Source: Flaviramulus basaltis (GTDB lineage: Bacteria > Bacteroidota > Bacteroidia > Flavobacteriales > Flavobacteriaceae). Taken from it: a stretch of DNA of 64,000 nt. Both the position numbers and the translations under genes were made by a program. This document shows positions 15,706-58,766 of this stretch, piece by piece. Under the pieces are notes generated by a model, which had not been told where the DNA came from, searched no databases, and saw only the letters and a program-made list of their open reading frames with translations. The stretch spans positions 372,001 through 436,000 of the forward strand of contig NZ_FPKV01000003.1 of NCBI RefSeq assembly GCF_900114265.1, in the 5' to 3' direction. Positions within the stretch are counted from its first letter, which is position 1, and every line of letters starts with the position of its first letter.

Positions 15706-16134
15706 CTATTTTTTTAATGTTTTATACATAACATAATGCAAGCCAATATCTTTTATAGGGAAAGCTTTGCCAATAGTTTGGTAATTGTTTTTTTTGTAAA
15801 AATCTACAGCAATTTCTCTTGCATTACACCAAATAATATCTGTATTCTTTTTCTTTATAAATTCTTCTGTGTAATTTAGAATGATGTTTCCAATCCCTTT
15901 ACCTTGATATTCTTTCAAAATTGCCATACCTCTTAATTGATATTGGTTCTCTTCAGAAAAATTCGAGTGACTATTTTTAAAAAAAGAACAAATACCTACT
16001 AGATTTTTTTTGGTAAAAATGCCAAAATGTAAAGTCGTATTAAGGTCATCTCCATCAAAAACACAAGTTTCAATAGGTTTTCCTGCTCTTAAAACAGGAA
16101 GCCTGACTTTATAAGTTTCTTTAGAACTTATAAT
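15706..16134 (-). CDS. GNAT-family N-acetyltransferase without a normal start codon
   Basis: The obvious ATG at 15927 gives only 73 residues and begins at the acetyl-CoA loop (EYQGKGIG). The same frame stays open upstream to a stop at 16180-16182 and encodes a convincing GNAT N-terminus (ETYKVRLPVLRAGKPIET, then DGDDLNTTLHFGIF). No ATG, GTG or TTG occurs in that extension; the end given here assumes an ATT codon at 16134. Either a rare initiation codon is used or the start codon has been lost. The substrate is unknown. It is divergent from another GNAT gene at 16240. Confidence 0.6.
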   Translation of the reverse strand: MISSKETYKVRLPVLRAGKPIETCVFDGDDLNTTLHFGIFTKKNLVGICSFFKNSHSNFSEENQYQLRGMAILKEYQGKGIGNIILNYTEEFIKKKNTDIIWCNAREIAVDFYKKNNYQTIGKAFPIKDIGLHYVMYKTLKK

Positions 16135-16239
16135 CTTAGTATTATAATCTAAATTTTTAATGTCTAATTTTTTAAAATTTTAATATTTCAAACATATAAA
16201 ATATTTTGTGTAATTATTACCTTCACATAAAACTTGTTT

Positions 16240-28202: not shown

Positions 28203-28277
28203 GGCGTGCCCTTTCAGGTCAGGCTTTTCGCTAAATCTTTTGCAAAAGCAAAAGGATATCGCTACAATCCTTCACGC
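28203..28277. repeat. Palindromic intergenic repeat in the kynurenine operon
   Basis: The element starts with GGCGTGCCC and ends with CACGC, so its ends are complementary. It contains an inner hairpin ATCTTTTGC-AAAA-GCAAAAGGAT (28235-28257) and CGCTA repeated on both flanks. It lies just upstream of the 3-HAO start. I recognise this type of sequence from intergenic repeats of flavobacterial genomes but cannot confirm copy number here. Confidence 0.6.
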
Positions 28278-28298
28278 AATTATATTTCAACTATAAAG

Positions 28299-30674: not shown

Positions 30675-31078
30675 TATAATTTTTTATAAGCCATAACCTT
30701 TATCTCAACCACCAAATCTGGATGCGGTAATTGATGTACCGCAACGGTTGTTCGTGTTGGTCCAGTTTCTTTATCAAAGAATTCTGCATAAGCTATATTA
30801 TAACCTGAAAAGTCATTCATATTTACTAAAAATGATGTGACATCAACCACATCTTTTAAAGTAGCTCCAATTTTAGCTAAGTTCTTTTCTATATTTTTTA
30901 AAACTTCACGTGTTTGTACTTCTATATTTAAGTGCTTGGTTCCCATCTCATCAATAATATCTACACCAGCAATAGTATTGTCGGGTCTTCTTGAACTTGT
31001 TCCAGAAACAAATATAAAATCGCCAACTCGTTTGGTGTGCGGATAAGCACCTCTTGGGGTTACAGTTTTTTCACTCAT
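30674..31078 (-). CDS. RidA-family protein, probable 2-aminomuconate deaminase
   Basis: This 134-residue RidA/YjgF fold protein has the substrate-binding Arg109 in [13 protein letters not shown] and a Glu in [11 protein letters not shown]. Family members hydrolyse enamines and imines. The 2-aminomuconate deaminases described in aromatic degradation operons belong to this family, and the location in a kynurenine operon next to the semialdehyde dehydrogenase supports that role. General imine deaminase activity is the alternative. It lies 6 bases after kmo. Confidence 0.88.
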
Positions 31079-31084
31079 AGCTAT

Positions 31085-32482
31085 TTATTTTAAGCCTGCA
31101 ATTTCATCGTCTTCTAAAATGGCTTCGGTTTCTTGTTTTACTTTTTGTAAAGTATGTTTTAAATCATCATCTAATGCTATCACGCCATCGGTTAATAGAT
31201 TTAAAATAGCTTTGTCTTGCGCTCTTCCTTTTAACATAGCTTCTCTGTAACCAATATTTTCATTAAAAGTTACTAATGAATATTTTGATGAATATTCATC
31301 TGGAAACTCTTTTTCTAAAGCCATTTCTAATTTACGCTTTTCTTGAAAGATTTCTTGATTTACATGGCCTTTCATTTCATGAAAATTATCAATAGCTAAA
31401 TCGGCAATGGCATCTGTATCTTTTTTTCTTGTTTTTTCATAGGCTTTAAAAACACTTTCCCAATCGTTTTTATGATAATCTAAAACGGTATCGAATTCTA
31501 CGACATCTTCAAAAGAGGCGTTCATACCTTGCCCATAAAAGGGTACAATAGCATGAGCCGAATCTCCCATTAAAAGCGTGTTGCCTTTATAATGCCAAGG
31601 CGAACATTTTACAGTGCCTAAAGGCGATGTTGGGTTCTCAAAAAAGTCGTCTAAAAGATTAGGCATTATTGTTAGAGCATCTGGGAATTCTTTTTGAAAA
31701 AACTCTAAAACCTTAACCTCAGTTTTTAAATTATTAAAATTGTATTCACCTTCATCATAACTTAAAAATAGTGTTACAGTAAAACTACCATCTAAATTTG
31801 GTAAAGCAATAAGCATAAAATCGCCACGTGGCCAAATATGAAGTGCATTTTTATAAGCTTTATAATCGCCATTTTCTGTTGGTAAAATACTAAGTTCTTT
31901 ATAGCCGTGAGTTAAGTATTCTTGGGAAAAACTGAATAAGAATTTCTTGCCCAAATAATAGCTTTTTCGCATAGCAGAACCTGCACCATCAGTCGCAATT
32001 ATAACATCGGCATCTTCTATAAATTGGGTTTTTGTACTGTAATCTTCAAATAAAGCTGTAGTTTTTTCAAAATCTACCGATTTACATTTTTTATTGAAAT
32101 AGATGTTTACGTTTTCATGTTTTTCGGCCTCATTTAAAAGTAAAGTATTTAAGTCTCCACGAGAAATAGAATTTATATACTCATAATCACGACCACTATA
32201 ATTTGATTGAAATGTGTTACCATGTTCATCATGAATCATACGTCCGTTCATAGGAATACAAAGTGCTTTTACTTTATCTTCTAAACCAACTAATTTCATG
32301 GCTTTATTACCACGATCTGAAAAAGCAAGATTTATAGAACGACCTGCACTAATATCTACTTTACGTAAATCTGGGCGCATTTCGTAAACGGATACATTAT
32401 AACCTCTTTGACCTAATCGTAACGCTAAAAGGCTTCCACAAAGTCCTGCGCCTATAATTAATATGTTTTGTTGTTTATTCAT
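31085..32482 (-). CDS. kmo: Kynurenine 3-monooxygenase
   Basis: This 465-residue FAD monooxygenase hydroxylates L-kynurenine to 3-hydroxykynurenine with NADPH. The dinucleotide-binding motif IGAGLCGSLLALRLGQRG (residues about 8-25) is followed by the Arg-rich SAGRSINLAFSDRG region and the second FAD motif LMGDSAHAIVPFYGQGMN. These are characteristic of KMO. It overlaps kynU by 8 bases. It is complete. Confidence 0.96.
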   Translation of the reverse strand: MNKQQNILIIGAGLCGSLLALRLGQRGYNVSVYEMRPDLRKVDISAGRSINLAFSDRGNKAMKLVGLEDKVKALCIPMNGRMIHDEHGNTFQSNYSGRDYEYINSISRGDLNTLLLNEAEKHENVNIYFNKKCKSVDFEKTTALFEDYSTKTQFIEDADVIIATDGAGSAMRKSYYLGKKFLFSFSQEYLTHGYKELSILPTENGDYKAYKNALHIWPRGDFMLIALPNLDGSFTVTLFLSYDEGEYNFNNLKTEVKVLEFFQKEFPDALTIMPNLLDDFFENPTSPLGTVKCSPWHYKGNTLLMGDSAHAIVPFYGQGMNASFEDVVEFDTVLDYHKNDWESVFKAYEKTRKKDTDAIADLAIDNFHEMKGHVNQEIFQEKRKLEMALEKEFPDEYSSKYSLVTFNENIGYREAMLKGRAQDKAILNLLTDGVIALDDDLKHTLQKVKQETEAILEDDEIAGLK

Positions 32483-33746
32483 TTAAAATAGCCTTTAATT
32501 TTTCAACCAAACCATATACATCTTCAAACGAATTGTATAGAGGTGTTGGTGCACAACGAATAACATCAGGTTCTCGCCAATCGCTAATAACTCCGGCTTC
32601 TGTTAATTTATTATGTAATGTTTTATTAGCATTTTTTACTTGTATGGACAATTGGCAACCGCGCTCTTTTGGGTTTTTAGGCGTGATAATGCTAATAACA
32701 TTTTCACCCAATTGGTTTAATAAAAACTCAAAATATACAGTAAGTTTTTTAGATTTTTCGATTAGTTTTTCAATACCTACTTCATTAAACATATCTAAAG
32801 AAGCTTTTATTGCAGCCATAGATAAAATTGGAGGATTGCTTAATTGCCAACCTTCAGCACCTGGAAGTTGATCAAACTCATCACGCATATTAAATCGTGT
32901 TTGTTTGTTATGACTCCACCAACCAGTAAAGCGGTTTAAATTTTTGTTATATGCATGGCGTTCGTGTACAAAACAACCTGCTAAACTTCCTGGTCCAGAG
33001 TTTAAGTATTTATATGTGCACCAAACCGCGAAATCTGCTCCAGAATCATGTAAGTTCAAGGCGACGTTTCCAGCACCATGAGCACAATCAAAACCAACTT
33101 TACAACCATATTGGTGTCCTAGTTTTGTGATGCGTTTTAAATCGAAAAACTGCCCTGTATAATAGTTTACACCGCCAATCATAATTAGTGCTATTTCATC
33201 ACCATGAGTTTCTAAAATAGCTTCTAAATCTTCGTAATTAAGTAATTCTTCTCCTTTTCTCGGTTTCCATAAAATTAAACCTTCCTTATCATCAATTCCA
33301 TGATGCCTTAGTTGTGATTCAACAGCATATTTATCTGAAGGAAAAGCATCACTTTCAATAAGTATTTTATAACGTGTTTTAGTGGGTTGGTAAAACGATA
33401 CCATCATAAAATGAAGGTTTGCAGTAAGCGTATTCATTACTATGACTTCAATAGGTTTTGCACCAACCACTTTAGCCATACTTTCGGTTAAAAATTCATG
33501 ATATGGTAACCAAGGGTTTTTAGCTTCAAGATGTCCTTCAACACCTAAATTTGCCCAATCTTCTAATTCTTGATTTATGTAAGACTTGGTAGCTTTTGGT
33601 TGAAGTCCAAGTGAATTACCTGTCATGTAAATTAATTCATTTCCACCAGCATCTTTAGGGATATGAAATTGATTTCGGTATGATTTTAATTCGTCATTTC
33701 GGTCTTGTTCTAAAGCGTATTCTAGACCTAGTTTATATGTAGACAA
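32475..33746 (-). CDS. kynU: Kynureninase
   Basis: This PLP enzyme cleaves 3-hydroxykynurenine (or kynurenine) to 3-hydroxyanthranilate and alanine. The PLP-lysine region is WCTYKYLNSGPGS, and GFDCAHGAGN holds the cofactor-binding Asp. No ATG lies near the N-terminus. TTG at 33773 would give 432 residues, but it is the last part of a TATTTTTG promoter-like box, so I prefer the in-frame TTG at 33746 (about 423 residues). It is the first gene of the kynurenine operon and overlaps kmo by 8 bases. Confidence 0.92.
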   Translation of the reverse strand: MSTYKLGLEYALEQDRNDELKSYRNQFHIPKDAGGNELIYMTGNSLGLQPKATKSYINQELEDWANLGVEGHLEAKNPWLPYHEFLTESMAKVVGAKPIEVIVMNTLTANLHFMMVSFYQPTKTRYKILIESDAFPSDKYAVESQLRHHGIDDKEGLILWKPRKGEELLNYEDLEAILETHGDEIALIMIGGVNYYTGQFFDLKRITKLGHQYGCKVGFDCAHGAGNVALNLHDSGADFAVWCTYKYLNSGPGSLAGCFVHERHAYNKNLNRFTGWWSHNKQTRFNMRDEFDQLPGAEGWQLSNPPILSMAAIKASLDMFNEVGIEKLIEKSKKLTVYFEFLLNQLGENVISIITPKNPKERGCQLSIQVKNANKTLHNKLTEAGVISDWREPDVIRCAPTPLYNSFEDVYGLVEKLKAILNE

Positions 33747-33770
33747 AGTGTTTTTGTTTTCGGTTTCAAA

Positions 33771-33801
33771 CAAAAATAAGAATTATAAAGTTAGTAACGA
33801 A
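33771..33801 (-). promoter_or_regulatory. Candidate promoter of the kynurenine operon
   Basis: On the minus strand, TTCG (33798-33801) and TATTTTTG (33771-33778) are separated by 19 bases, one mismatch from the Bacteroidota consensus TTTG-N19-TAnnTTTG. The box overlaps the upstream candidate TTG start of kynU, so box and start cannot both be used. Confidence 0.5.
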
Positions 33802-33862
33802 CACAAAAAAATGAAGATTAAAACGCTGTAATTTTTCGTATATTTAATAAAAATTTTTAGTT

Positions 33863-34282
33863 ATGGGTAAGACTAAAGAATATACAAATGGTGAAGTTAC
33901 CATTGTATGGAAGCCAGAATCTTGTATACATTCAGGAATTTGCATTAAAGGCTTGCCGGATGTATTTCGTCCTAAAGTAAGACCATGGATTAGAATTGAT
34001 AAGGCTATTACTGAAGATTTAATTAAACAAGTAAAACAGTGTCCTTCTGGTGCGCTAAGTTATTACATGAATGCAAATGATGATAAAACTTCTGAAGTTT
34101 TAGAAACTAAAATTGAGGTTTTGGAAAACGGACCATTGCTAGTTTATGGTACACTTAAAGTCATTAAAAAAGACGGTTCTTCTGAAATTAAAAATAAAAC
34201 CACTGCTTTTTGTAGATGTGGATCATCAAACAATAAACCATATTGTGATGGTACACATGTGAAATCTGAATTTGAAGGATAG
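33863..34282 (+). CDS. YjdI-like 4Fe-4S / CDGSH iron-sulfur protein
   Basis: This 139-residue protein fuses two small domains. The N-terminal part is a YjdI-type divergent ferredoxin with Cys21, Cys27 and Cys60 (SCIHSGICIKG, QCPSGAL). The C-terminal part is a CDGSH 2Fe-2S domain with Cys117, Cys119, Cys128 and His132 (CRCGSSNNKPYCDGTH). It is probably a soluble electron-transfer or redox-sensing protein. It is a single gene divergent from kynU. Confidence 0.92.
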   Translation: MGKTKEYTNGEVTIVWKPESCIHSGICIKGLPDVFRPKVRPWIRIDKAITEDLIKQVKQCPSGALSYYMNANDDKTSEVLETKIEVLENGPLLVYGTLKVIKKDGSSEIKNKTTAFCRCGSSNNKPYCDGTHVKSEFEG

Positions 34283-34424
34283 TTTTATAAAAAGACAAAG
34301 CGCTTAAACCATTGATTTAAACGCTTTGATATATATAGACGCATAAAGCGGAATATTAAAACTATACCTTATATACGTGAATTACTCCATCGTTGGATGT
34401 TTTAATTACAAAAAATAATTAAAA

Positions 34425-35090
34425 TTATTCTAAAGTAACTTTTATATCACTAAATTTAAGATTCCAGTCTCCAGCAGCATTTTTATGTTCTAAAGCAATT
34501 TTAATACCATTAAAATCTTGATAGTTTTCAAATGTTGTAGCTAAAGATGGTTCTGCTTGGTTACTTCTTCTAAAAATCCATTCTTTAATTAAAAAATCAT
34601 CATTATAATAAATATCATAAGCATCACCAGGTGTATAACCTCCGCTTTCATTGGAGTAGGTTAACGTAATTTTATTTAATTGAGATTTATTTATTGGAGA
34701 TTCTTCAATTACAGGATTAGAAATAGTTGCGCCTTTATCCCAAACTAATTGAAACGGAACTAATAACCAAAATTTGTCGTTTATAAATCCGCCATCTGTT
34801 TTGGCAAGTAGAGAATCAACTTTACTTCTATTATATTGTATAGTATCAGTTTTACCAAGAAGCATCACATCATTGGTTTTTGGTTTCCATATCCAACTTC
34901 TGCTACCATTAAATGTAAACGCAGCTTCCGATACATTTTTCCAATTTTCAAAACCATGAGCATTGGCTATTTTTTGTGCAGTAGAAATTTCAGTTTTAAC
35001 AATTTCTGGTTCTACTAATTTTGTCTCTGCTTTTTGCTTGCAACTAATAAAAACAAAAGCAATTAAAGTAATATAAATAAGGTTTTTCAT
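34425..35090 (-). CDS. Putative lipoprotein, DUF6503-like
   Basis: This 221-residue protein starts with a lipoprotein signal peptide with lipobox FISC (Cys17). The mature part is beta-rich with a HGFENWKNVSEAAFTFNGSR segment and repeated aromatic strands. It resembles the outer-membrane-attached DUF6503 proteins of flavobacteria, a family without known function. A hairpin at 34296-34328 without a T run lies downstream. The gene is divergent from a methyltransferase gene. Confidence 0.75.
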   Translation of the reverse strand: MKNLIYITLIAFVFISCKQKAETKLVEPEIVKTEISTAQKIANAHGFENWKNVSEAAFTFNGSRSWIWKPKTNDVMLLGKTDTIQYNRSKVDSLLAKTDGGFINDKFWLLVPFQLVWDKGATISNPVIEESPINKSQLNKITLTYSNESGGYTPGDAYDIYYNDDFLIKEWIFRRSNQAEPSLATTFENYQDFNGIKIALEHKNAAGDWNLKFSDIKVTLE

Positions 35091-35123
35091 AATTTAGTTT
35101 TTTTATAAAGATATGACTTGAAG

Positions 35124-35927
35124 ATGAATACTAACGAAAATTATTTTAAAGTTAATAAAGAAACTTGGAACAATAAAGTAAAAGTGCATGCTAAAAGCAA
35201 TATGTACGATTTAGATGCTTTTAAAAAAGGAAAATCTTCATTAATGCTTTATGAAATAGAGGCTTTAGGCGATGTAAAAGGTAAGTCGTTACTCCATTTG
35301 CAATGTCATTTTGGGCAAGATACTTTAAGTTGGAGTAGGTTAGGAGCCAAATGTATGGGTATTGATTTAAGTGATGAAGGTATAAAACTAGCAAAAAACT
35401 TAAACGATGAATTAGGTTTAGATGCTGAATTTGTTTGCTGTAATGTTTTAAATACTTCTGAATTTATAAAGGATACATTTGATATTGTTTTTACAAGTTA
35501 CGGCGTGATTGGTTGGTTGCCCGATTTAAAGCCTTGGGGGAAAATGATAGCAGAACGATTGAAAAATGGAGGCACTTTTTTTATAGCTGAATTTCATCCC
35601 ATTGTTTGGATGTTTGATTATCAGGAAGACAAACCTGTTATGAAATATGGTTATATGCAAGATGCTGTTATTTATGAAGAATATGAAGGTACTTATGCCA
35701 ATCAAGAATCAAAAATGGTTAGTAAAGAATATGGTTGGAATCATGGATTGAGCGAAGTTGTTTCTGCTTTATCAGAAGCTGGGTTACATATTGAGTTTTT
35801 AAAAGAATATGATGAAAGCCCATATAACGTTTTGCCAGATTTAATTGAAACCGAATCTGGTATGTTTGTGACTAAAAAAAATAAATTATACCCTTTAATT
35901 TTTACTTTGAAGGCTATAAAAATATAG
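35124..35927 (+). CDS. Class I SAM-dependent methyltransferase
   Basis: From the ATG at 35124 this is 267 residues; a TTG two codons upstream is less likely. The glycine-loop motif is SLLHLQCHFGQDTL, the acidic strand end is KCMGIDLSDEGI, and DTFDIVFTSYGVIGWL and RLKNGGTFFIAEFHP follow. This variant with a QCHFGQDT loop is common in Bacteroidota; the substrate is unknown. It borders the first accessory module on its 3' side. Confidence 0.87.
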   Translation: MNTNENYFKVNKETWNNKVKVHAKSNMYDLDAFKKGKSSLMLYEIEALGDVKGKSLLHLQCHFGQDTLSWSRLGAKCMGIDLSDEGIKLAKNLNDELGLDAEFVCCNVLNTSEFIKDTFDIVFTSYGVIGWLPDLKPWGKMIAERLKNGGTFFIAEFHPIVWMFDYQEDKPVMKYGYMQDAVIYEEYEGTYANQESKMVSKEYGWNHGLSEVVSALSEAGLHIEFLKEYDESPYNVLPDLIETESGMFVTKKNKLYPLIFTLKAIKI

Positions 35928-35957
35928 ATTGAAAAGGAACTTGAATAAGTGGTGTTC

Positions 35958-36134
35958 GTTTAACGACTTGATATAAAATCGTTTTAATGTTTATATCGGT
36001 TTTGTATAAGAATAGCAGCGGGTTTAAGTGCGAGGATTTTCCACAGGAAAATCAGCTGAAACATAATGGCAACGATTTTTTGGCTAAAGACTAATTCAGC
36101 AATTATTTTTATATGTCTTTGTTAGCTTTAGTTA
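35958..36134. repeat. Left boundary element of accessory module 1 (attC-like)
   Basis: The element starts with GTTTAAC and runs through a core (TTGATATAAAATCGTTTTAAT, 35969-35988) also present at 36803-36822. It continues with CGGTTTTGTATA at 35997-36008, GCGAGGATTTTC at 36030-36041 inside a hairpin (GATTTTCC-ACA-GGAAAATC), and GTTAGCT at 36121-36127. It ends at TAGTTAT, which supplies the stop codon of the accessory gene. The marker strings recur in the same order at 56651-56799. Confidence 0.7.
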
Positions 36135-36788
36135 TATTTTATCCCAATTTGTTTTGTTTGCTCTAAATTCATAATCTCTATTGTGTTTCTTCTTTAATTC
36201 ATTTGCTTTCATTAGCAAATCAACAGTAATAGAACTCACATCTTCTTTTGTCAAAATAATAGACTGGTTTGAAATTTTATTATCGTACTCTAACTGAATA
36301 GATTTCAGTTCAGAGTCAAATTCAGAGTTTATAGTTGTGGTGGCAAATTGTATTAAGTTAGATAATAGAAATAAGTCATAGATTGTTCTAGGAGCATCAT
36401 AATCAGCAACGTTTTCTCCAAAAACGAACTCTCCATTTTTACCAATTCTGAGATTATGAGCTAATAACTCATTTCGCATATCTTTTAGGTTTTTCCACTC
36501 CCTGATTTTTGATATTAGAGGTTTGTTTATTGATTTTACAATTATTATTCTATCCTTAAACTCCGTTTCTGTTTTTATTCCAAAGAACTGGTCGTATTCA
36601 TCTAAGAATGAAACAGAATCTATAAGAGTCATATAAAAAAGTGAATTGAGAAGAGAAACATTCTTAGCAGATAATTCAGAAATTTTATACTTACTAAAAC
36701 CGAAATCAGTTATAAGTTCTGATCTATAATCAATATCTCTTGCAAATTTGGTAAGTATTTTGATACTTTCAATAGTCTTGATTTCTAA
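36132..36788 (-). pseudogene. HEPN-like accessory protein, start codon missing
   Basis: From the first ATG (36632) the gene encodes 166 residues, but the frame is open and protein-like upstream to a stop at 36789-36791 with no ATG, GTG or TTG. So the gene is 5'-damaged, uses a rare start, or truly begins at 36632. The sequence NLKDMRNELLAHN gives an RNxxxxH motif (Arg53, His59 from the ATG), as in HEPN ribonuclease-type domains. The rest is helical and I do not recognise a family. It lies between the boundary elements of module 1, with the stop codon inside the left element. Confidence 0.55.
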
Positions 36789-36792
36789 TTAC

Positions 36793-36873
36793 AGCCAACG
36801 ATTTGATATAAAATCGTTTTAATGTTTTATATAACGTTAAACGAAGTTAACTGAAAATTTTTATAAAGTCAAA
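36793..36873. repeat. Right boundary element of accessory module 1
   Basis: The element begins AGCCAAC (near complement of GTTAGCT at 36121) and contains the palindrome AACGATTTGATATAAAATCGTT (36797-36818, key halves AACGATTT and AAATCGTT). GTTAAACGAAGTTAAC at 36836-36851 and AAAGTCAA at 36865-36872 follow. It aligns over about 75 bases with 58644-58724. Confidence 0.72.
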
Positions 36874-36890
36874 TAAGATTTTTGATTAGA

Positions 36891-37550
36891 TTAATGCATA
36901 TTGTCCTTTAAAACCTCAGGCATTTTAGACTTAAACCTATTTAATCTTGGTATAGAAACATTTTGAATGTAAGAATTGTTTGGATGCAGTTTTTCATAAT
37001 CTTGATGGTAATCTTCAGCTACCCAAAATTTTTGAAAAGGATATACTTCGGCTGCAATTTCAGTATTAAGTTTTTTTGCTAATGCTTCTTTTTTCTTTAA
37101 AATGATTTGTTTTTGCTCCTCATTTTGATAAAAAATAATAGAACGGTATTGAGAACCTCTATCATTTCCTTGTCCGTTAACTTGTGTTACATTTTGGGAA
37201 GCAAAATATACATCAACTAAAGTTTCAAAACTTACCACTTTAGGATCGTATATAATTTCTACAGATTCAGCATGTCCTGTTCTGCCTGTATTATTAGCCT
37301 CATAAGTTGGATTTTTTGTATGACCACCAGAATATCCTGAAATAGATTCTTCAACACCTTTAACACTTTCATAAATAGCTTCAACACACCAAAAGCAACC
37401 ACTTGCGAAGTAGGCTCGTGCTTTTCCATTTTTTAGAGGCACTTCAACAGGCTCTGCATTTTCAACAGTTTGCAGACCATTATTGTTTTGCGCTTCATTT
37501 TTACAATTAAAAAGTAATGTTATAAGTAAAAGTGGAATGATTTTTTTCAT
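36891..37550 (-). CDS. msrA: Peptide methionine-S-sulfoxide reductase MsrA (lipoprotein)
   Basis: This 219-residue protein has a lipoprotein-type signal (LLFNC, Cys16) and so acts outside the cytoplasm. The catalytic motif GCFWC is at about residues 52-56, and GYSGGHTKNPTYE and GHAESVEIIYDP are the conserved MsrA blocks. It reduces methionine-S-sulfoxide in oxidised envelope proteins. It lies directly beside the right end of accessory module 1 and is intact. Confidence 0.95.
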   Translation of the reverse strand: MKKIIPLLLITLLFNCKNEAQNNNGLQTVENAEPVEVPLKNGKARAYFASGCFWCVEAIYESVKGVEESISGYSGGHTKNPTYEANNTGRTGHAESVEIIYDPKVVSFETLVDVYFASQNVTQVNGQGNDRGSQYRSIIFYQNEEQKQIILKKKEALAKKLNTEIAAEVYPFQKFWVAEDYHQDYEKLHPNNSYIQNVSIPRLNRFKSKMPEVLKDNMH

Positions 37551-37621
37551 CAGATTTTTATTTTTTAAGTAAGACGTATTAAAATAAGAAACCTTAATAG
37601 TAAATATGTGAAAATTTTCAT

Positions 37622-37655
37622 AAAAAAAAAAGCCTTCATTAACTTGAAGGCTTTT
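37622..37655 (-). terminator. Terminator after the zinc-ribbon-like gene
   Basis: A 7-bp stem GCCTTCA / TGAAGGC is extended by A and T tracts. On the minus strand it ends in a long T run, 22 bases after the gene at 37677. Confidence 0.85.
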
Positions 37656-37676
37656 AAATATATGTTTTAAAATGAA

Positions 37677-38456
37677 TTAAATTTTTGAAAACATTTTATC
37701 CATTTTTGCTTTTTGTTCTTCTGCTAAAGCAGCATCAACTAAAATTCTACCACTATGCTCATCAGTAATAACTTTTTTGCGAGATGCAATTTCTACTTGC
37801 ACTTGAGGAGGAATAGTAAAGAAAGATCCACCAGCGGCACCTCTTTCAATTGCTACAACAGCTAAACCGTTTTTAACGTTTCTTCTAATTCTGCTATATG
37901 CAGCAACTAAACGTTCTTCGATTTGCTCTTTGTATTCTTCAGATTTATTAATTAAAGCTTGCTCTTCTTTTTCAGTTTCAGCTAAAATTGCATCAAGTTC
38001 ACTTTTTTTGTGTTTTAGGTGATTCTCACGCTCTTTTAAACGCTCTTTAGTTTCAGAAATCACTTCTTTTTTCTGCTCTATTTGAACTTTAAATTCCTTA
38101 ATGTGCTTTTCAGCTAGCTCAATTTCAAGCTCTTGAAATTCAACTTCTTTAGTTAAAGAATTGTATTCTCTGTTATTTCTAACATTTTTTTGTTGCTCGC
38201 TATACTTTTTAATTAAAGCTTTAGATTCTTCAATTAAATTTTTCTTTCCGGTAATATCGTCATCTATTACTCCTAGATTTGCAACAAGTTTTTCTAGTCT
38301 AATGCTTAATCCAGCAACTTCATCTTCTAAATCACGCACTTCTAGAGGAAGTTCTCCACGAACATTTCTTATTTCATCAATACGAGAATCGATGAGTTGT
38401 AAATCGTAAAGCGCTCTTAAACGTTCTTCTACAGTTGCTTCTTTCTTTTTAGCCAT
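37677..38456 (-). CDS. Coiled-coil CdsZ/zinc-ribbon family protein lacking the zinc cysteines
   Basis: This 259-residue protein is mostly a long coiled coil (about 20-195), followed by the C-terminal block of the C4-type zinc-ribbon family: GGSFFTIPPQVQVEIASRK and DEHSGRILVD. In that family these positions normally hold two CxxC pairs; here all four Cys are replaced, so zinc binding is not expected. The protein is otherwise well formed, which suggests the loss is tolerated. It lies 3 bases after the Nif3-like gene, a pairing common in bacteria. Function unknown, possibly linked to RNA or nucleotide binding. Confidence 0.87.
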   Translation of the reverse strand: MAKKKEATVEERLRALYDLQLIDSRIDEIRNVRGELPLEVRDLEDEVAGLSIRLEKLVANLGVIDDDITGKKNLIEESKALIKKYSEQQKNVRNNREYNSLTKEVEFQELEIELAEKHIKEFKVQIEQKKEVISETKERLKERENHLKHKKSELDAILAETEKEEQALINKSEEYKEQIEERLVAAYSRIRRNVKNGLAVVAIERGAAGGSFFTIPPQVQVEIASRKKVITDEHSGRILVDAALAEEQKAKMDKMFSKI

Positions 38457-38459
38457 ATT

Positions 38460-39554
38460 TTAAAAATACTTAACAGGATTGGTATTTATCTTTGATAAAA
38501 TGATTGCAAAATTAGTAATTTTTTTTGTAAGATATGCTACTAAAAGATTTTTTGTGAACTGCTCACTTTCATAATGTCCAATATCAGCTAAAAGTATGCT
38601 GTTTTCAGCAGTAAAAAAATCATGATATTTTAAATCTGCAGTTATATAAGCATCAGCACCAGATGATTTAGCAGCTTGAATTGCAAAACTACCAGAACCT
38701 CCTAAAACAGCAACTTTTTTTATTTTCTTGTTTAAAAAAGACGAATGCCTAATGCATTCTGTGTTCATTTTGGATTTTATGTGACTTAGGAAACGAGATT
38801 CGTCCATTGGTTTTTCTAATTCGCCAACCATTCCCATTCCAATATTTTGATTTTTATTCTCTAAAGTAGTTATTTCATAAGCAACTTCTTCATAAGAGTG
38901 TGTTTTAAAAAGTGTTTGTAATACTTGAGTCTCTATATGTTTTGCGTAAGTAATAGTGATTTTTGTTTCTTCTTCTGTATGAATAGTACCTTTTTTTCCT
39001 TTTGTAGGGTTAGAATTTTCATTGCCATTAAAAGTGCCTAAGCCTTCTACATTAAAACTACAATCGTTATAATTTCCAATGCTACCAGCGCCTACTTTGA
39101 ACAATGAGTTTCTCAATGCTTCAGCTTCATTTGTTGGTACATAAGTAGTTAGTTTTTTTATAGTTTGACTTTGTGGGATTAAAATACGGTTATTTGTTAA
39201 TTCTAACTGATTACAAATCATGCTATTTACACCTTGAAAAGCATTATCTAGAGCAGTATGTATGCTATAAATAGCTATGTCGTGTTTTATAGCTTTTGTA
39301 ACAACACGTTCTACATAATTTTTACCGGTAATTTTTTTTAAACCTTTAAAAATAATAGGGTGGAAGCTAACAATAAGATTGCAATTTGTAGAAATGGCCT
39401 CGTCTACAACAGCTTCAAGCGTATCTAAAGTGACTAGGATACCAGTGATTTTGATGTTTTTATCTCCAACTAAAAGCCCAACATTATCAAAATCTTCGGC
39501 ATAGTCTAGTGGTGCAAGTTCTTCTAAATGATTTATGACGTCTTGAACAATCAT
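38460..39554 (-). CDS. Nif3-like dinuclear metal centre protein
   Basis: This 364-residue protein belongs to the NIF3/YbgI family. The two conserved halves flank an inserted domain of about 120 residues typical of the long Bacteroidota and Firmicutes form. Metal ligands are visible in VSFHPIIF, SIHTALDNA and the C-terminal DIGHYESE. Members have been annotated as GTP cyclohydrolase I type 2, but the true activity is unclear. It is translated just before the coiled-coil gene. Confidence 0.92.
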   Translation of the reverse strand: MIVQDVINHLEELAPLDYAEDFDNVGLLVGDKNIKITGILVTLDTLEAVVDEAISTNCNLIVSFHPIIFKGLKKITGKNYVERVVTKAIKHDIAIYSIHTALDNAFQGVNSMICNQLELTNNRILIPQSQTIKKLTTYVPTNEAEALRNSLFKVGAGSIGNYNDCSFNVEGLGTFNGNENSNPTKGKKGTIHTEEETKITITYAKHIETQVLQTLFKTHSYEEVAYEITTLENKNQNIGMGMVGELEKPMDESRFLSHIKSKMNTECIRHSSFLNKKIKKVAVLGGSGSFAIQAAKSSGADAYITADLKYHDFFTAENSILLADIGHYESEQFTKNLLVAYLTKKITNFAIILSKINTNPVKYF

Positions 39555-39607
39555 TTTATTTTTATCTATAGGTTTAAAACAAATATAAATATTATATTTT
39601 CGTTGTA

Positions 39608-40612
39608 ATGAAAATATTGAGATACATATTATTTCCTGTAATGCCTATTTATTTTCTAGTCACTTGGTTGAGAAATAAATTATATGATTTAGATATTAAA
39701 AAATCTGTTTCATATAATTTCCCAGTTATTTGTGTTGGCAATTTAAGTGCTGGAGGAACAGGTAAAACGCCAATGATAGAATATTTAATTAGTCTTTTAA
39801 AAGATGATTATAAGGTGGCGACATTAAGTAGAGGTTATAAAAGAAAAACCCAGGGTTTCCAACTAGCAAATGAAACTTCCACATCAGAATCTATAGGTGA
39901 TGAACCCTTTCAATTTTATAATAAGTATAAGAAGGATATTGATGTTGCTGTAGATGCAGATAGACAAAACGGAATTGAAGAGTTAGTAAGCTTAGAGCAA
40001 GTACCAGATGTTATATTACTCGATGATGCATTTCAGCATAGAAAAGTTAAAGCTGGATTTAATATTTTACTAACAACTTATAGTAATCCATATTTTAATG
40101 ATATGGTTTTGCCTACAGGTAATTTAAGAGAACCTAAAATTGGTGCAAAAAGGGCAAATATTATTATTGTTACAAAATGTCCTGAAGGTTTAAGTGAAGC
40201 AGAAAAGAAAGCTATTTTAAATAAAATAAATCCTGAAAACTATCAGCATGTTTTTTTTAGTACAATAGCTTATTCTGATACTATAATTTCAGATGATTTA
40301 ATAAAAAGTATTGATAATTTAAAAACGTTCACTTTGGTTACAGGTATTGCTAATGCAAGTCCATTAGTTACGTTTTTAAAGAGTAAAAATTTGAAATTTG
40401 AACATTTAAATTTTAAAGATCATTATAATTTTTCGACTAAAGATTTAGCAGAGCTTGATAAAAAAGAGTTAATAATAACAACCGAAAAAGATTTTATGCG
40501 ATTAAAACAGTATGAATCATTAAAAAAGAAGTTATTTTATTTGCCTATAACAGTTAAAATAAATGATAAAAATAAGTTTGATAAACTCATTAAAGCTTTT
40601 ATTAAGCACTAG
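39608..40612 (+). CDS. lpxK: Tetraacyldisaccharide 4'-kinase
   Basis: This 334-residue inner-membrane enzyme phosphorylates the lipid A disaccharide precursor. An N-terminal membrane helix (about 1-22) precedes the P-loop VGNLSAGGTGKTPM. DVILLDDAFQHRKVK is the conserved catalytic block. The presence of lpxK shows the cell makes lipid A. It converges with the hybrid kinase gene, overlapping by 11 bases. Confidence 0.96.
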   Translation: MKILRYILFPVMPIYFLVTWLRNKLYDLDIKKSVSYNFPVICVGNLSAGGTGKTPMIEYLISLLKDDYKVATLSRGYKRKTQGFQLANETSTSESIGDEPFQFYNKYKKDIDVAVDADRQNGIEELVSLEQVPDVILLDDAFQHRKVKAGFNILLTTYSNPYFNDMVLPTGNLREPKIGAKRANIIIVTKCPEGLSEAEKKAILNKINPENYQHVFFSTIAYSDTIISDDLIKSIDNLKTFTLVTGIANASPLVTFLKSKNLKFEHLNFKDHYNFSTKDLAELDKKELIITTEKDFMRLKQYESLKKKLFYLPITVKINDKNKFDKLIKAFIKH

Positions 40613-42839
40613 CAGTAGAGCCTTTTTTCCCTGCTAAAGCATTGTAAAGTTTTTTCTCAAACTCTTCTTGTTTAAAGGGCTTTGGTATAATATCTGTAAA
40701 ACCAGCTTCTTCAAATTCATGCATTTTATCTTCAATAGTTACAGCTGTAAGCGCAAAAATGGTAAGTTCTTTATCAAATGATCTAACAATTTTTGTAGCT
40801 TCAATACCGCTAATTCCCGGCATATGTATATCCATTAAAATAATATCGTATTTATTATTTTTTATCATATCTACAGCATCTTCACCGTTATCAACTATAT
40901 CGCATTGAAGATCCATTTTAGTTAAAATCTTTTTGGTAATCATTTGGTTGATTTTATTATCTTCAACAACCAAAATTTTAACATTGGTTAAATCAACTTC
41001 GCTAGTGTTACCCTCAAAATATGTGACCTTATTTTCTGTGGTCTCTTTAACCGAAGTGTATTCTAATGGTATTTCAAAATAAAAAGTTGTTCCTTTTCCT
41101 AATTCGCTTTTCACGTAAATTTTTCCATTTAAAATTTCAATTAAACCTTTAACAATAGAGAGTCCTAAACCTGTGCCACCATATTTACGGTTAATTTGTA
41201 TAGAGCCTTGTGAAAAACTTTCAAACATATGATCTTGTTTTTCTTGGCTAATACCAATACCATTATCTTCTACTTCAAAGCGTAATGTATATATTCTATC
41301 TTTTTCTTCAATTTTATAAATACGAATCCAAATATCACCATCTTTAGTAAACTTAATAGAGTTCCCTATAAGGTTAATAAGAATTTGAGAAATTTTTAAC
41401 TGATCTGCAATATAGTTCTCAGGCAAATCTTTGTCGTATTCAAAATGAATATTAATATTATTGTCTTGCGCAGAGTTGTTTAATGCTAAAACAATGTTGT
41501 TGATTTTCTTTTTTAAGTTAAATGATTCTGGTTCAACATCTACCTTATTAGCTTCAATTTTATTTATTTGAAGAATATCGTTTATGAATGTTAAAAGATA
41601 GTCTCCAGAAAATTTTAGTGATTTTAAGTGTTGAATTTGTTCAGGTTTTGGGTTTTCATCCAACAACATATTACTTAAACCGGTAACCGCATATAATGGT
41701 GTTCGTAGCTCATGTGTTACTGTTGATAAGAAATTAGCCTTTGTTTTTGATGCTAGCTCAGCTTTCTCTTTGGCAATTATGAGTTCAGAATTTTTCTTGT
41801 GAAGCATATTGTTTGTCTTCAACCTTATATTGTTGTTTTTGTAAAGAGATAATGTTAAAAGAGACAGAATAGTAATTAATGCAACACTTAAAATTGATAT
41901 TAAAGTGCCTAAACTGTTATCAGATTCAGATTGCTTTAATTTTTCAGAAACTTCTTCTAGCTCATGATGAACATCTGCTAACTTGCTTTGTGTTTCTTGT
42001 TCTTTTGAAGAGTTAAATTGAGTTAAATTTCTAATAGAATCTGAAAGTTTTACATGCTCACTTAAAAAATTTCTTGATAGCTTATAGTTTTCAACTTCAT
42101 TATATAAATCACTTAAAATTAAATATCCTTCGTTAAGAATATTAGTGAATTTATTTTCTTTAGCCATTTGTAAACCTTCAATAGTATAAGCTATTGCTTT
42201 TTCATTATCACCTAATTTATTGTAAACAATACCATGATTAATAAGGGCTTCACTATGTGTTTTTGTTAAATCTATTTTTTTGGATAATGCCAAAGCTTGT
42301 TCAATAATAGTCCTAGCTTTTCTATAGTTTTTTAAAAGCATATAGGTTTTTCCTTCACTTAAAAGTGTTTCAGCTAAATCCTCATCTAAATCTTCTTCCT
42401 CAAATTTTGTTTTTGCTGCTGTGTAAGAATCGAGCGCTTGATAATAATCTTTTTTAACAAAGTAAACATCTCCAAAAATTTTATAAGATTTACCTAAGTT
42501 AGCGTTATCGTTTGTAATGCGTTGAACTTCTATGGCTTTGTTGAGCGATTTTATAGCTTTATCTTCTTCTCCAATGACAAGCTGTAATCGTCCTTTTATA
42601 GCATAAATAAGACCTATACTTTTTTTGTTATCTGCTTTTTCAGCTAAAACGAGTGCTTCATCTAGGTTTAATTGAGCTTTGTAGTAATTGTAATTATCTA
42701 AATGTTCTTTAGCTTGTTGAATTCTATAACTAATATTATTTTGTGCTAATTCAGGGTCGTTTTCGATTGTTTTTTGCGAATACACACCAATGCTGAAAAG
42801 CATTATTATTATATATATGTAGTTTTTAACTTGGGACAT
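40602..42839 (-). CDS. TPR-containing hybrid histidine kinase
   Basis: The ATG at 42839 gives about 745 residues with a signal peptide (NYIYIIIMLFSIGVYSQ). A TTG seven codons upstream is part of a TATATTTG box and is rejected. TPR repeats (about 40-270) are followed by a coiled coil, a membrane helix (about 312-333) and HisKA with His376 (TVTHELRTPL). The ATPase domain has LIGNSIKFT and GTGLGLSI, and the receiver domain has ILMDIHMP. It is a close paralogue of the kinase at 23556. The downstream target is unknown. Confidence 0.92.
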   Translation of the reverse strand: MSQVKNYIYIIIMLFSIGVYSQKTIENDPELAQNNISYRIQQAKEHLDNYNYYKAQLNLDEALVLAEKADNKKSIGLIYAIKGRLQLVIGEEDKAIKSLNKAIEVQRITNDNANLGKSYKIFGDVYFVKKDYYQALDSYTAAKTKFEEEDLDEDLAETLLSEGKTYMLLKNYRKARTIIEQALALSKKIDLTKTHSEALINHGIVYNKLGDNEKAIAYTIEGLQMAKENKFTNILNEGYLILSDLYNEVENYKLSRNFLSEHVKLSDSIRNLTQFNSSKEQETQSKLADVHHELEEVSEKLKQSESDNSLGTLISILSVALITILSLLTLSLYKNNNIRLKTNNMLHKKNSELIIAKEKAELASKTKANFLSTVTHELRTPLYAVTGLSNMLLDENPKPEQIQHLKSLKFSGDYLLTFINDILQINKIEANKVDVEPESFNLKKKINNIVLALNNSAQDNNINIHFEYDKDLPENYIADQLKISQILINLIGNSIKFTKDGDIWIRIYKIEEKDRIYTLRFEVEDNGIGISQEKQDHMFESFSQGSIQINRKYGGTGLGLSIVKGLIEILNGKIYVKSELGKGTTFYFEIPLEYTSVKETTENKVTYFEGNTSEVDLTNVKILVVEDNKINQMITKKILTKMDLQCDIVDNGEDAVDMIKNNKYDIILMDIHMPGISGIEATKIVRSFDKELTIFALTAVTIEDKMHEFEEAGFTDIIPKPFKQEEFEKKLYNALAGKKGSTASA

Positions 42840-56650: not shown

Positions 56651-56799
56651 TTATTGTTTACGGTTTTGTATATAATTAGTGGCGTGTTTAAGCAACTAAT
56701 TTAGTAAACAAAAACGGAATAGAAAATCCGCGAGGATTTTCGTAAGCAAGCTAGAACAGAGCAAGAGCAATTAATTATACACGGTGTTAGGCATAGTTA
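56651..56799. repeat. Left boundary element of accessory module 2 (attC-like)
   Basis: The element contains CGGTTTTGTATA (56661-56672), a GAAAATCC-GCGA-GGATTTTC hairpin with GCGAGGATTTTC at 56730-56741, and TAATTATACACGG near its end. GTTAGGC (56786-56792, an exact GTTRRRY core) and TAGTTAT follow. The two ends can pair (GTATATAATTAG with the complement of TAATTATACAC). The final TTA is the stop codon of the HEPN gene. The same strings recur in order at 35997-36134. Confidence 0.75.
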
Positions 56800-57399
56800 T
56801 TTTAAACTTTTAATCAATAAATCTAAATCAGAGATTGGTGGAAGTATGTTAAGATTTATATTATTCCTTTGTGTAACTAAATCGATTTGATTTTGGGCAC
56901 TTATTGTTGAATGGGCTATTGAGCCACGTTGAGCTCCAAAACTATCCATTGTGCTCAACCAAGCATTATCCAAATCACTTTCTTCGACACCAACCGGAAG
57001 TAACATTTTATATAAATGCTCTGATTTTATTCCGTGATTTGACCCTAGCTTATTAATAAAATGTCTTACTACTTTATTTACACGAAAGTCAAATTTTAAT
57101 TTATCAACTTTTTGAATACGGTCCCAATTAATTTCGTCAGCACAAAAAGACATTACAGCTAAAAGGCAGTTACTTTTCTTTCTTCCAATTATCCAATCAT
57201 CAAACGCTTTTTCAATTTTTTGCAATGCAACATCCTCAAAATATGACTCAATTTCAGCGTGTACCAAAAGCACATAACTCCTAATTAAATCAGATTCTTT
57301 CTTTGTATAGTTACCAGAAATCTTTACAATTGGTAGTAGATTTGTTTCAAGAGAATTTATCCTAGATACCAAACGAATATATCTTTTAGAATTTGCCAT
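56797..57399 (-). CDS. HEPN-domain protein, MAE_28990-like
   Basis: This 200-residue all-helical protein has the HEPN ribonuclease motif RGSIAH (Arg158-x4-His163) after helices that include SYVLLVHAEIESYFEDVAL. It resembles the RiboL-PSP/MAE_28990-type HEPN proteins found in defence and toxin loci. Its ATG follows the TAG stop of the DUF262 gene with no spacer, so the two are co-translated. An RNA-cutting effector controlled by the DUF262 partner is the likely role, but this is inference. Its stop lies in the boundary element. Confidence 0.78.
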   Translation of the reverse strand: MANSKRYIRLVSRINSLETNLLPIVKISGNYTKKESDLIRSYVLLVHAEIESYFEDVALQKIEKAFDDWIIGRKKSNCLLAVMSFCADEINWDRIQKVDKLKFDFRVNKVVRHFINKLGSNHGIKSEHLYKMLLPVGVEESDLDNAWLSTMDSFGAQRGSIAHSTISAQNQIDLVTQRNNINLNILPPISDLDLLIKSLK

Positions 57400-58626
57400 C
57401 TACATTTCTTCAATCAAAAACAAACCATTTTCATATAATGGAACATCAATTGTAACATCTAAAATATTCGATAAAGCTTGACCCCAAGTAGTAAGTCTTT
57501 TGAACGTGTTCTCCATACTTTTAGTTGTATGTTCAAATGATTCTAAAAAATCTGAATCATTTTCACATAAGTTTTTAAATGAAGTCAATATTTCATCACC
57601 TTTATTTTTAGCTTCATTTAATATATCTTCATTACTAAAGTAATAAACCATAATATCGAATACTGCTCTGTTGAAATTGCCTTGAAAGGAATTTCCATTC
57701 CATTTACTAAAAGCCTTTTTTGAATCACCATACATAGTTATAACAAAGTCAATTGCGTCATTTAATAATTGTGCATCTTTTCTTATGACCTCCTCTTTTT
57801 TATGCCATAAATCATTTAATTGTTTAACAGTGTTATCAAAGTGTTTTTTAAGATTTCCATCATAAAATGGCAAAAAATATTTGTTTGCAAAATATCGAAT
57901 AACAATCTCGACATCCCTCATTCTATAGTCAGGTTTCTTCAGGTTTAACATTAATTTTATTTGCTCACTTTCTATTGAGAACTCATCTGCAAAATCAATA
58001 AATGGGCCAGGATGAAGTGCTTGTCTTAATTCTTGAGGACTTAATTTGATACTTCCAGTATTTAATCGAAGAAAGACAGTAAAGAGAAACTCTTCATTTG
58101 GCCAATTTTTCAAAACTACTGTCCGGATACTTTGGTTCTCAATTTGTATTAATTCTTCAGAAAATTGAGACTCATCTCTCAAATTTTTGTAAGTCTTGCC
58201 ATTTAAATGTGTTAGAATTTCTAAACCAGAAAGTTTTAATGGGACAAATTCATCGTCCTTTTTTATTGAGAAGAATCTTCGAATAGTTAATAATCTTTGT
58301 TTACCGTCTATGACAATATATTTCCCTCTTGAATTCGTTTTTTCAGCTAAAATAATTTGGGGAATAGGTAATCCTAAAATCAAAGATTCTATAAACTTAC
58401 TTTTAGCTTGATTAGACCAAGCGTCCCTCCTCTGGAATTTAGGGAATAAATCAATATTATTTTTTAACAATTGAGAGTTAATAGTTTCAGCAGTCCAATC
58501 TGTTCCCCAAATTACGGCTTGACTAAAAGTTGATACATCTTGTAATATATCATCCTCATTTTCTGTACCTACGTCTTCAATATTTTCGAAGAGTGATTCG
58601 TTTATTTCTTCTTTACTTTCTATCAT
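57400..58626 (-). CDS. DUF262 (GmrSD N-terminal/ParB-like) protein
   Basis: This 408-residue protein has the DUF262 hallmarks: FPKFQRRDAWSNQAKSKFIE, SLILGLPIPQI and the nucleotide/nuclease motif IDGKQRLLTI (Asp107-Gly-Lys-Gln-Arg111; most members have DGQQR). FLRLNTGSIKLSPQELR follows. No DUF1524 HNH nuclease domain is seen in the C-terminal half, so it is not a complete GmrSD. It is coupled to the HEPN gene with no spacer. A restriction-like or toxin-control function is likely; the ligand is unknown. Confidence 0.85.
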   Translation of the reverse strand: MIESKEEINESLFENIEDVGTENEDDILQDVSTFSQAVIWGTDWTAETINSQLLKNNIDLFPKFQRRDAWSNQAKSKFIESLILGLPIPQIILAEKTNSRGKYIVIDGKQRLLTIRRFFSIKKDDEFVPLKLSGLEILTHLNGKTYKNLRDESQFSEELIQIENQSIRTVVLKNWPNEEFLFTVFLRLNTGSIKLSPQELRQALHPGPFIDFADEFSIESEQIKLMLNLKKPDYRMRDVEIVIRYFANKYFLPFYDGNLKKHFDNTVKQLNDLWHKKEEVIRKDAQLLNDAIDFVITMYGDSKKAFSKWNGNSFQGNFNRAVFDIMVYYFSNEDILNEAKNKGDEILTSFKNLCENDSDFLESFEHTTKSMENTFKRLTTWGQALSNILDVTIDVPLYENGLFLIEEM

Positions 58627-58640
58627 TTTATTTTTTTAAT

Positions 58641-58724
58641 TATGCCTAAATACTTGACATGAAATCGTTTTATTGTTTTATATCTAATGTAAACGAAGTT
58701 ATCATTTTTTTCTGACAAAGTCAA
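58641..58724. repeat. Right boundary element of accessory module 2
   Basis: The element begins TATGCCTAA, the exact complement of TTAGGCATA at 56787-56795. It continues with TTGACATGAAATCGTTTTATTG, GTAAACGAAGTTATC (58689-58703) and AAAGTCAA (58717-58724). It aligns base by base with 36795-36873 at most positions. Confidence 0.74.
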
Positions 58725-58729
58725 TTCAT

Positions 58730-58766
58730 AAAAAAAAACCACCTTGTTTTTACAAAGTGGTTTTTT
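58730..58766 (-). terminator. Terminator after the FKBP gene
   Basis: The stem AACCAC-C-TTG / CAA-A-GTGGTT (one mismatch) with loop TTTTTA is flanked by long A and T tracts. It lies 20 bases beyond the stop of the FKBP gene on its strand. Confidence 0.85.

Follow-up and report, generated by a model that had tools for sequence, protein, structure and literature searches.

A HEPN-like gene with ATC in its start-codon slot on a putative cassette of an integron-like system in Flavobacteriaceae

Results

A HEPN-like gene probably translated weakly from AUC

In a 64,000-nucleotide stretch of the Flaviramulus basaltis genome (contig NZ_FPKV01000003.1, positions 372,001 to 436,000; hereafter the window, in whose numbering positions are given), a HEPN-like gene without any usual start codon at its 5′-end was found on the minus strand, which we read as probably a complete gene on one cassette of an integron-like system, translated weakly from AUC. 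The features concerned are listed below.

36842 to 36873, minus strand: predicted promoter, i.e. TTTG (36873-36870), 20 bases and TAACTTCG (36849-36842), based on aligned copies and the consensus
36797 to 36842, minus strand: docking sequence with a GTTTAACG arm and a ATATAAAA...TTTTATAT palindrome, ending in the cassette-start GTT; read as attI-like, recurring before three other lone cassettes
36794 to 36799, minus strand: cassette-type 5′ core GTTGGC with predicted crossover G^TT, in the form that array cassettes show at their GTT starts
36789 to 36791, minus strand: in-frame TAA three codons upstream of ATC, from translation
36780 to 36782, minus strand: ATC codon in the start-codon slot, opposite the ATG of homologue L038 (genome G036)
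36135 to 36782, minus strand: HEPN-like coding frame from ATC, 216 residues, with the homologue's ATG aligned and a PF18734 match below cutoff
35997 to 36126, minus strand: attC-like boundary element 3′ of the HEPN-like gene (profile 71.8 bits, model positions 7-124)
35954 to 35996, minus strand: second copy of the docking interior with right arm CGTTAAACGAAC (31-base direct repeat 35962-35992, 97% identical)

Behind the TAA at 36791-36789 the frame stays open for 218 codons up to its closing TAA at 36134-36132 (translation of 36132-36791), and the earliest ATG, GTG or TTG is the ATG at 36632, preceded by 52 start-free codons, confirming the open upstream frame reported for 36788-36132 by the first-pass annotation. 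The gene also ends at a boundary element as annotated, its stop lying just before the core GCTAAC (36126-36121). The 52-codon run alone is weak evidence, because such runs are not rare inside long frames of the AT-rich window (2925/16207 stretches of 52 codons, 18%); at the 5′-end of a frame, directly behind the upstream stop, such runs are unusual, and at least 52 start-free codons occurred there in 2 of the 55 window frames of at least 150 codons, the other being the GNAT gene 15706-16179.

Homologues were detected in three other genomes, the same three in both searches (4/149 relatives and 4/397 family genomes, own genome included), and only one close homologue was present among the 3/396 other genomes with a match. 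This closest homologue, L038, is 54% identical, aligns with the window frame without an internal stop in the latter, and has its ATG exactly opposite the window ATC 36782-36780; in the two distant ones (30% and 28% identity), the first ATG comes 3 residues and 1 residue earlier, as placed from a conserved lysine. Since the homologue starts align at or near the ATC slot, the 5′-end of the gene is judged complete, and initiation further up than ATC is impossible because of the in-frame TAA three codons upstream. The idea that a cassette had been captured without its start is not supported, as the homologue's ATG faces an existing codon, upstream residues are shared and the 5′ core GTTGGC lies just upstream. 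Rare initiation and decay, the other two possibilities raised at first pass, both stand, since a single base separates the slot from a correctly placed ATG and the frame is otherwise intact.

On sequence alone, the ATC slot may reflect either weak initiation or the loss of a start codon that happened very recently. In the latter case the cassette had an ATG, and a recent ATG-to-ATC change silenced a gene whose frame has not yet decayed; the homologue does carry ATG at the slot, and both the cassette ends and attC have already degenerated, as those of a copy no longer in use would. In other bacteria, AUC initiates translation very poorly. Such a loss is nevertheless rather unlikely in our view, as the 216-codon frame is intact with the active-site motif kept, and two independent recent losses would be needed, given that the GNAT gene is likewise start-less where its homologues begin. 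We favour weak use of AUC over silence, since neither frame nor motif is damaged and the window contains another gene in the start-less condition.

An assembly or sequencing error at 36780, the true base giving ATG, would need one base only in a draft assembly of 32 contigs. Single-base errors are rare in such assemblies, and the base lies outside any homopolymer, making an error improbable. Very improbable is translation from ATG 36632, the first usual start codon in frame, with a noncoding upstream frame: all three homologues have their first ATG upstream of that position, contrary to the refutation that the annotation had foreseen, i.e. homologues starting at this ATG with an unconserved upstream frame; 23 of the 48 aligned upstream codons (48%) encode the residue of the closest homologue; and the short form would lack the first 50 of 216 residues. 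Identical residues made up 94/166 aligned codons (57%) in the remainder of the frame, and the second codon position was the least changing one in both the upstream part (13) and the rest (37), so the N-terminal part is taken as coding sequence from its kept residues and its least-changing second positions.

The GNAT frame 15706-16179 (minus strand, 157 codons) contains no ATG, GTG or TTG in its first 84 codons, and its Pfam match already sets in 36 codons ahead of the first ATG. Its homologues have an ATG at window residues 9-12 in 15/29 loci (ungapped count); in the three closest, TTG or GTG are the only start codons nearby. Two start-less genes in one window are suggestive of tolerated AUH starts, a little over two recent losses. 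Elsewhere in the window, a Flavo-1 RNA (Rfam RF01705, 49.9 bits) was located at 28213-28285 on the minus strand.

The protein is HEPN-like

The HEPN active site is given as Rx4-6H with a supporting acidic residue, and AbiU2 is counted among the abortive-infection HEPN families, in the available text of PMC3710099. The Rx4-6H motif is present in all four aligned sequences (RNELLAH, RNHFLAH, RNQLIAH and RNNVLAH), and 26 columns are identical throughout, including R103, N104, H109 and E62. The HEPN function suggested at first pass is backed by this motif and by a weak match to Pfam HEPN_AbiU2 (PF18734, E 2.3e-4), which falls short of proof with 21.1 bits against a gathering cutoff of 26.8; L038 scored 20.0 bits, and the two distant homologues gave no match at E 0.001. 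PADLOC and NCBIfam models did not match the protein. The single-sequence structure model (pLDDT 39.9) was too poor for use or for a fold search, and the four-sequence profile yielded three PDB matches at E up to 10, the best at E 0.072 and none named HEPN. Thus, with the AbiU2 family the window protein shares the R-N-x4-H motif, a conserved acidic residue and the weak PF18734 match, and differs in lying below the Pfam cutoff and lacking a PADLOC match; we call it HEPN-like and no more than a candidate AbiU2 member. A HEPN protein from an integron cassette exists as PDB 3jrt, and RNase-mediated dormancy has been proposed for such genes in the same source (PMC3710099); the likeness is a HEPN gene on a cassette, and the difference is that the four-sequence profile matches no PDB entry of that name. 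Searches of plasmids, phages, viral contigs and named genome contigs, where records near the own genome may be absent, reported no homologues.

Boundary elements have a predicted attC-like fold and delimit putative cassettes with matched ends

The boundary element belongs to a family found by BLAST at 46 places in the pieces fetched (47 matches minus one covering the docking repeat only), and its central hairpin pattern, allowing up to 3 mismatches, had 48 matches in the genome versus 0 for the reversed-pattern control. Most elements belong to arrays that occupy short contigs or contig ends, regions in which the assembly may contain duplicates, and some are solitary; a profile search added further divergent elements, some of which carry the central hairpin in their opposite half. 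Alignment of 40 elements (39 distinct rows) gave a fold of outer stem, inner stem and hairpin with 26 pairs and 96.9% of cells paired, so that the elements are predicted to fold by outer and inner stems as integron attC sites do. Two-sided changes were present in 11 pairs, and 0/500 shuffles equalled these three values, with the structure predicted on the same alignment; the pair-type count was reached by 9/500 shuffles, and sliding the alignment destroyed the pairing. A second subfamily (L021:1303-1429, L023:3848-3974 and similar ones) has its hairpin in the other half and the same outer ends, and two attC shapes thus coexist within one array.

With cassette ends placed by the profile, 49 intervals between elements had a length of 100 to 4000 bases, and 48 of them were usable. 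The 6 bases after GTT and the reverse complement of the 6 before AAC agreed at 5 or more positions in 35/48 intervals, as in integrons, where a cassette start is complementary to its own end, compared with a mean of 4.2 and a maximum of 13 in 20000 shuffles; across the same site, i.e. between the end of one cassette and the start of the next, only 4/60 matched. Such matched ends are, as far as sequence can tell, the signature of cassettes moving as units. The ends of the window HEPN cassette itself match at 4/6, a level that 256/1190 mispaired combinations also reached and so not significant, and its attC is without the usual outer ends; for both reasons the window copy may be an old relic.

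These patterns also bear on whether the elements, instead of being recombination sites, are a repeat scattered through the genome, for example a transcription terminator or a REP-like element. Their inner part does form a strong hairpin and some copies are solitary, but the ends match within cassettes and not across a site, the outer stems covary, and recombinase genes precede cassette starts, making such a repeat improbable.

Integron core sites have the consensus RYYYAAC / GTTRRRY. The cassette starts here, such as GTTGTG, GTTACC and GTTGCC, do not follow it, and only the docking-sequence arms GTTTAAC/GTTAAAC fit.

A general absence of start codons in cassettes was ruled out. From the 35 matched-end cassettes of the same genome, 5 with a forward frame below 60 codons were dropped, one of which has a longer frame on the opposite strand; the remaining 30/30 carry ATG, GTG or TTG within the first 14 codons of their longest forward frame, several apparently TTG. 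Apparent TTG starts stand close behind the cassette core in L021:5121-5642, L023:3976-4497, L021:3971-4987 and L017:2384-3580, with the first ATG 65 to 195 codons in.

XerC-like recombinase genes are mostly followed by a palindrome and a cassette start

Two recombinase genes, of 378 and 375 codons, are situated at opposite ends of contig C19. In the first (C19:1246-2382), the stop codon points towards an attC-like element (C19:89-211), and cassette-type ends lie in the space that separates them; behind the second, at the 3′-end, come a palindrome and a GTT start, and the contig stops after 164 bases with the array beyond the assembly. The best PDB match of both is the XerC-like 4a8e, IntI4 (2a3v) coming second or third in two pieces, with 26 residues between the aligned pieces versus 69 in IntI4. 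The integron integrase model TIGR02249 matched the first gene at positions 2-180 and 243-315, not 181-242, and the second at 8-180 and 245-309, both below cutoff; below-cutoff matches of this kind also occurred in other recombinases of the genome and in 14/14 control genomes. About 105 residues precede the first Pfam domain. The recombinases do not have the IntI-specific additional domain around patch III, and because the accessible part of PMC9668308 names this domain as defining for integron integrases, the array recombinases are not classed as IntI.

The 30 loci with the highest similarity to the second C19 gene (own included) were scored by script: a palindrome with a cassette start 4-8 bases behind it stood in 20/30 recombinase tails versus 1/30 msrA tails used as controls, and thus an attI-like site stands between recombinase and first cassette as in integrons. 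By eye, most of the other ten tails showed a GTT-type start behind a less perfect palindrome, with L230 lacking one. The palindrome sequence varies between genomes while its position is kept. Within the fetched flanks, an attC-like element was present downstream in 7 loci and upstream in 0, five of the downstream flanks being shorter than 250 bases.

A divergent neighbour gene of 125-126 codons with Cys pairs stands beside both array-type recombinases (L049:1246-2848, L050:4916-6515); it looks zinc-ribbon-like by eye, and the one scanned had no Pfam match. Related genes are present in L084, L115 and L123, which also carry recombinases.

A docking sequence with a predicted promoter precedes lone cassettes

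Upstream of the HEPN cassette, the docking palindrome ends 7 bases before the crossover G, within the 4-8 range of the recombinase tails; among the ORFs at 31000-42000 no recombinase was recognised by eye. The predicted promoter is close to the Bacteroidetes consensus TTTG and TAnnTTTG, and the accessible text reporting this consensus notes that F. johnsoniae did not show the -33 motif (PMC7366714).

Leaving aside its own partial second copy, the stretch 36873-36797 (minus strand) has eight further matches in the genome with E no higher than 0.01. Behind three of these, C14:492120, C14:483437 and C19:657226 (C14 being the contig of the window), an attC-like element follows at a distance of about 500 to 700 bases, the match at C19:657226 being weak (E 0.0025); the other five have none after them (C14:430654, C19:897544, C19:1087841 and two covering the promoter half only). 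Solitary elements also stand near C19:772 kb and 774 kb, and no docking match goes with these. Among the lone cassettes, the cleanest is the one at C14:492120, with 6/6 matched ends and the right arm GTTAAACGAAC (by eye), which was also seen by eye at the right end of the window insertion; those at C14:483437 and C19:657226 have degenerate ends. The second docking copy of the window stands after attC on the far side of the cassette, and C14:492120 has no such copy.

The match C14:430654 corresponds to window 58654-58701, before a GmrSD gene: on the minus strand of 56797-58750, a docking-like promoter element precedes a GmrSD_N (DUF262) gene and a RiboL-PSP-HEPN gene, which are likely a defence pair.

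Distribution and cassette contents

Across the family, the boundary element was detected in 202/397 genomes with E at most 0.001, on the basis of two scored candidates per genome and with no control for chance matches, and 156 of these 202 reached E 1e-10 or better by hand count, while the weakest may be chance. An exact-pattern scan returned at least 115 stretches, with at least 25 named genera among the 80 loci listed, presumably nearly all Flavobacteriaceae, and it is from these named records that the family of the searched genomes is taken to be Flavobacteriaceae; 10 of these 80 loci had a recombinase match, 8 of them strong. A recombinase count of 199/397 at E 1e-60 was rejected as a prevalence, since it mixes general tyrosine recombinases with the array type. 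Cassette contents are diverse: among the 30 proteins scanned there were matches to 26 Pfam families, and of the 25 families shown, DUF6090 was the only one with two proteins, each of the others having a single one; 13 PADLOC models each matched one cassette protein.

Discussion

We propose that the transcript of the HEPN-like gene begins at the predicted promoter, about 55 bases upstream of the ATC slot, and that the gene would be translated weakly from AUC there. The product may be a HEPN-type RNase of the abortive-infection kind, and weak expression through a poor start codon would be fitting for an enzyme with toxic activity. Its cassette would belong to a Flavobacteriaceae integron-like system, in which a Xer-like tyrosine recombinase gene is followed shortly by a palindromic attI-like site and by arrays, whose cassettes start with GTT plus 6 bases, end with the reverse complement of these plus AAC, and carry, behind the gene, a folded site about 125 bases long. 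The HEPN cassette sits outside the arrays, behind the docking sequence, which would act as an att site and supply the promoter, with recombination presumably performed by these recombinases.

More broadly, and more tentatively, Flavobacteriaceae may possess a widespread second integron-like capture system. Its recombinase would be of Xer type, without the IntI domain, and would have a palindromic attI directly behind its stop codon; the arrays would share a long attC fold peculiar to them, and solitary docking sites with a promoter would each express one cassette. Genes such as the HEPN RNase may be held low in this system by a near-cognate AUC. Our confidence falls somewhat short of even, because 5/8 docking matches precede no attC-like element and the array of the second recombinase lies outside the assembly.

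The likeness to integrons comprises a recombinase gene beside an attI-like site with cassettes starting after it, arrays with a folding site per cassette, complementary cassette ends, and single cassettes also outside arrays. The differences are that the recombinase is without the IntI-specific additional domain, cassette starts are GTTRNNNNN, often GTTGTG, and not GTTRRRY, the end complementarity spans 9 bases, and a palindrome behind the stop codon of the recombinase serves as the attI-like site; because the tests of IntI domain and core consensus both fail, the system is classed as integron-like and not as an integron. Loot et al. (2024) reportedly described cassettes at non-classical attG genomic sites, including a lone cassette outside an integron; the lone cassette is alike, and the difference is that here several share one sequence with a predicted promoter. 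The infC gene of Escherichia coli starts with AUU, a conserved autoregulatory feature, resembling the present case by an AUH codon in start position and differing in that the homologue of the window gene has ATG.

In the available text of the IntegronFinder 2.0 survey (PMC9024848), a complete integron is reported in Salinibacter, with only In0 in Bacteroidetes earlier, and one complete integron is counted in Bacteroidetes beyond Chlorobi and Ignavibacteriae; Bacteroidota are named among the phyla with integrons (PMC8618304, as far as its text was accessible). A full-text literature search on integrons and integron-like arrays in Bacteroidetes, Bacteroidota and Flavobacteria, with preprints and most subscription journals outside its scope, returned, among the matches listed, no paper whose title or opening lines of the abstract describe such a system.

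The phylum starts translation largely without Shine-Dalgarno sequences, and the ATC slot is a clean test case for AUH initiation in it. If the arrays are mobile, two in five to half of the sampled family genomes would carry a pool of overlooked exchangeable accessory genes, some of them matching PADLOC defence models, and integron-style gene capture would need no IntI-specific domain.
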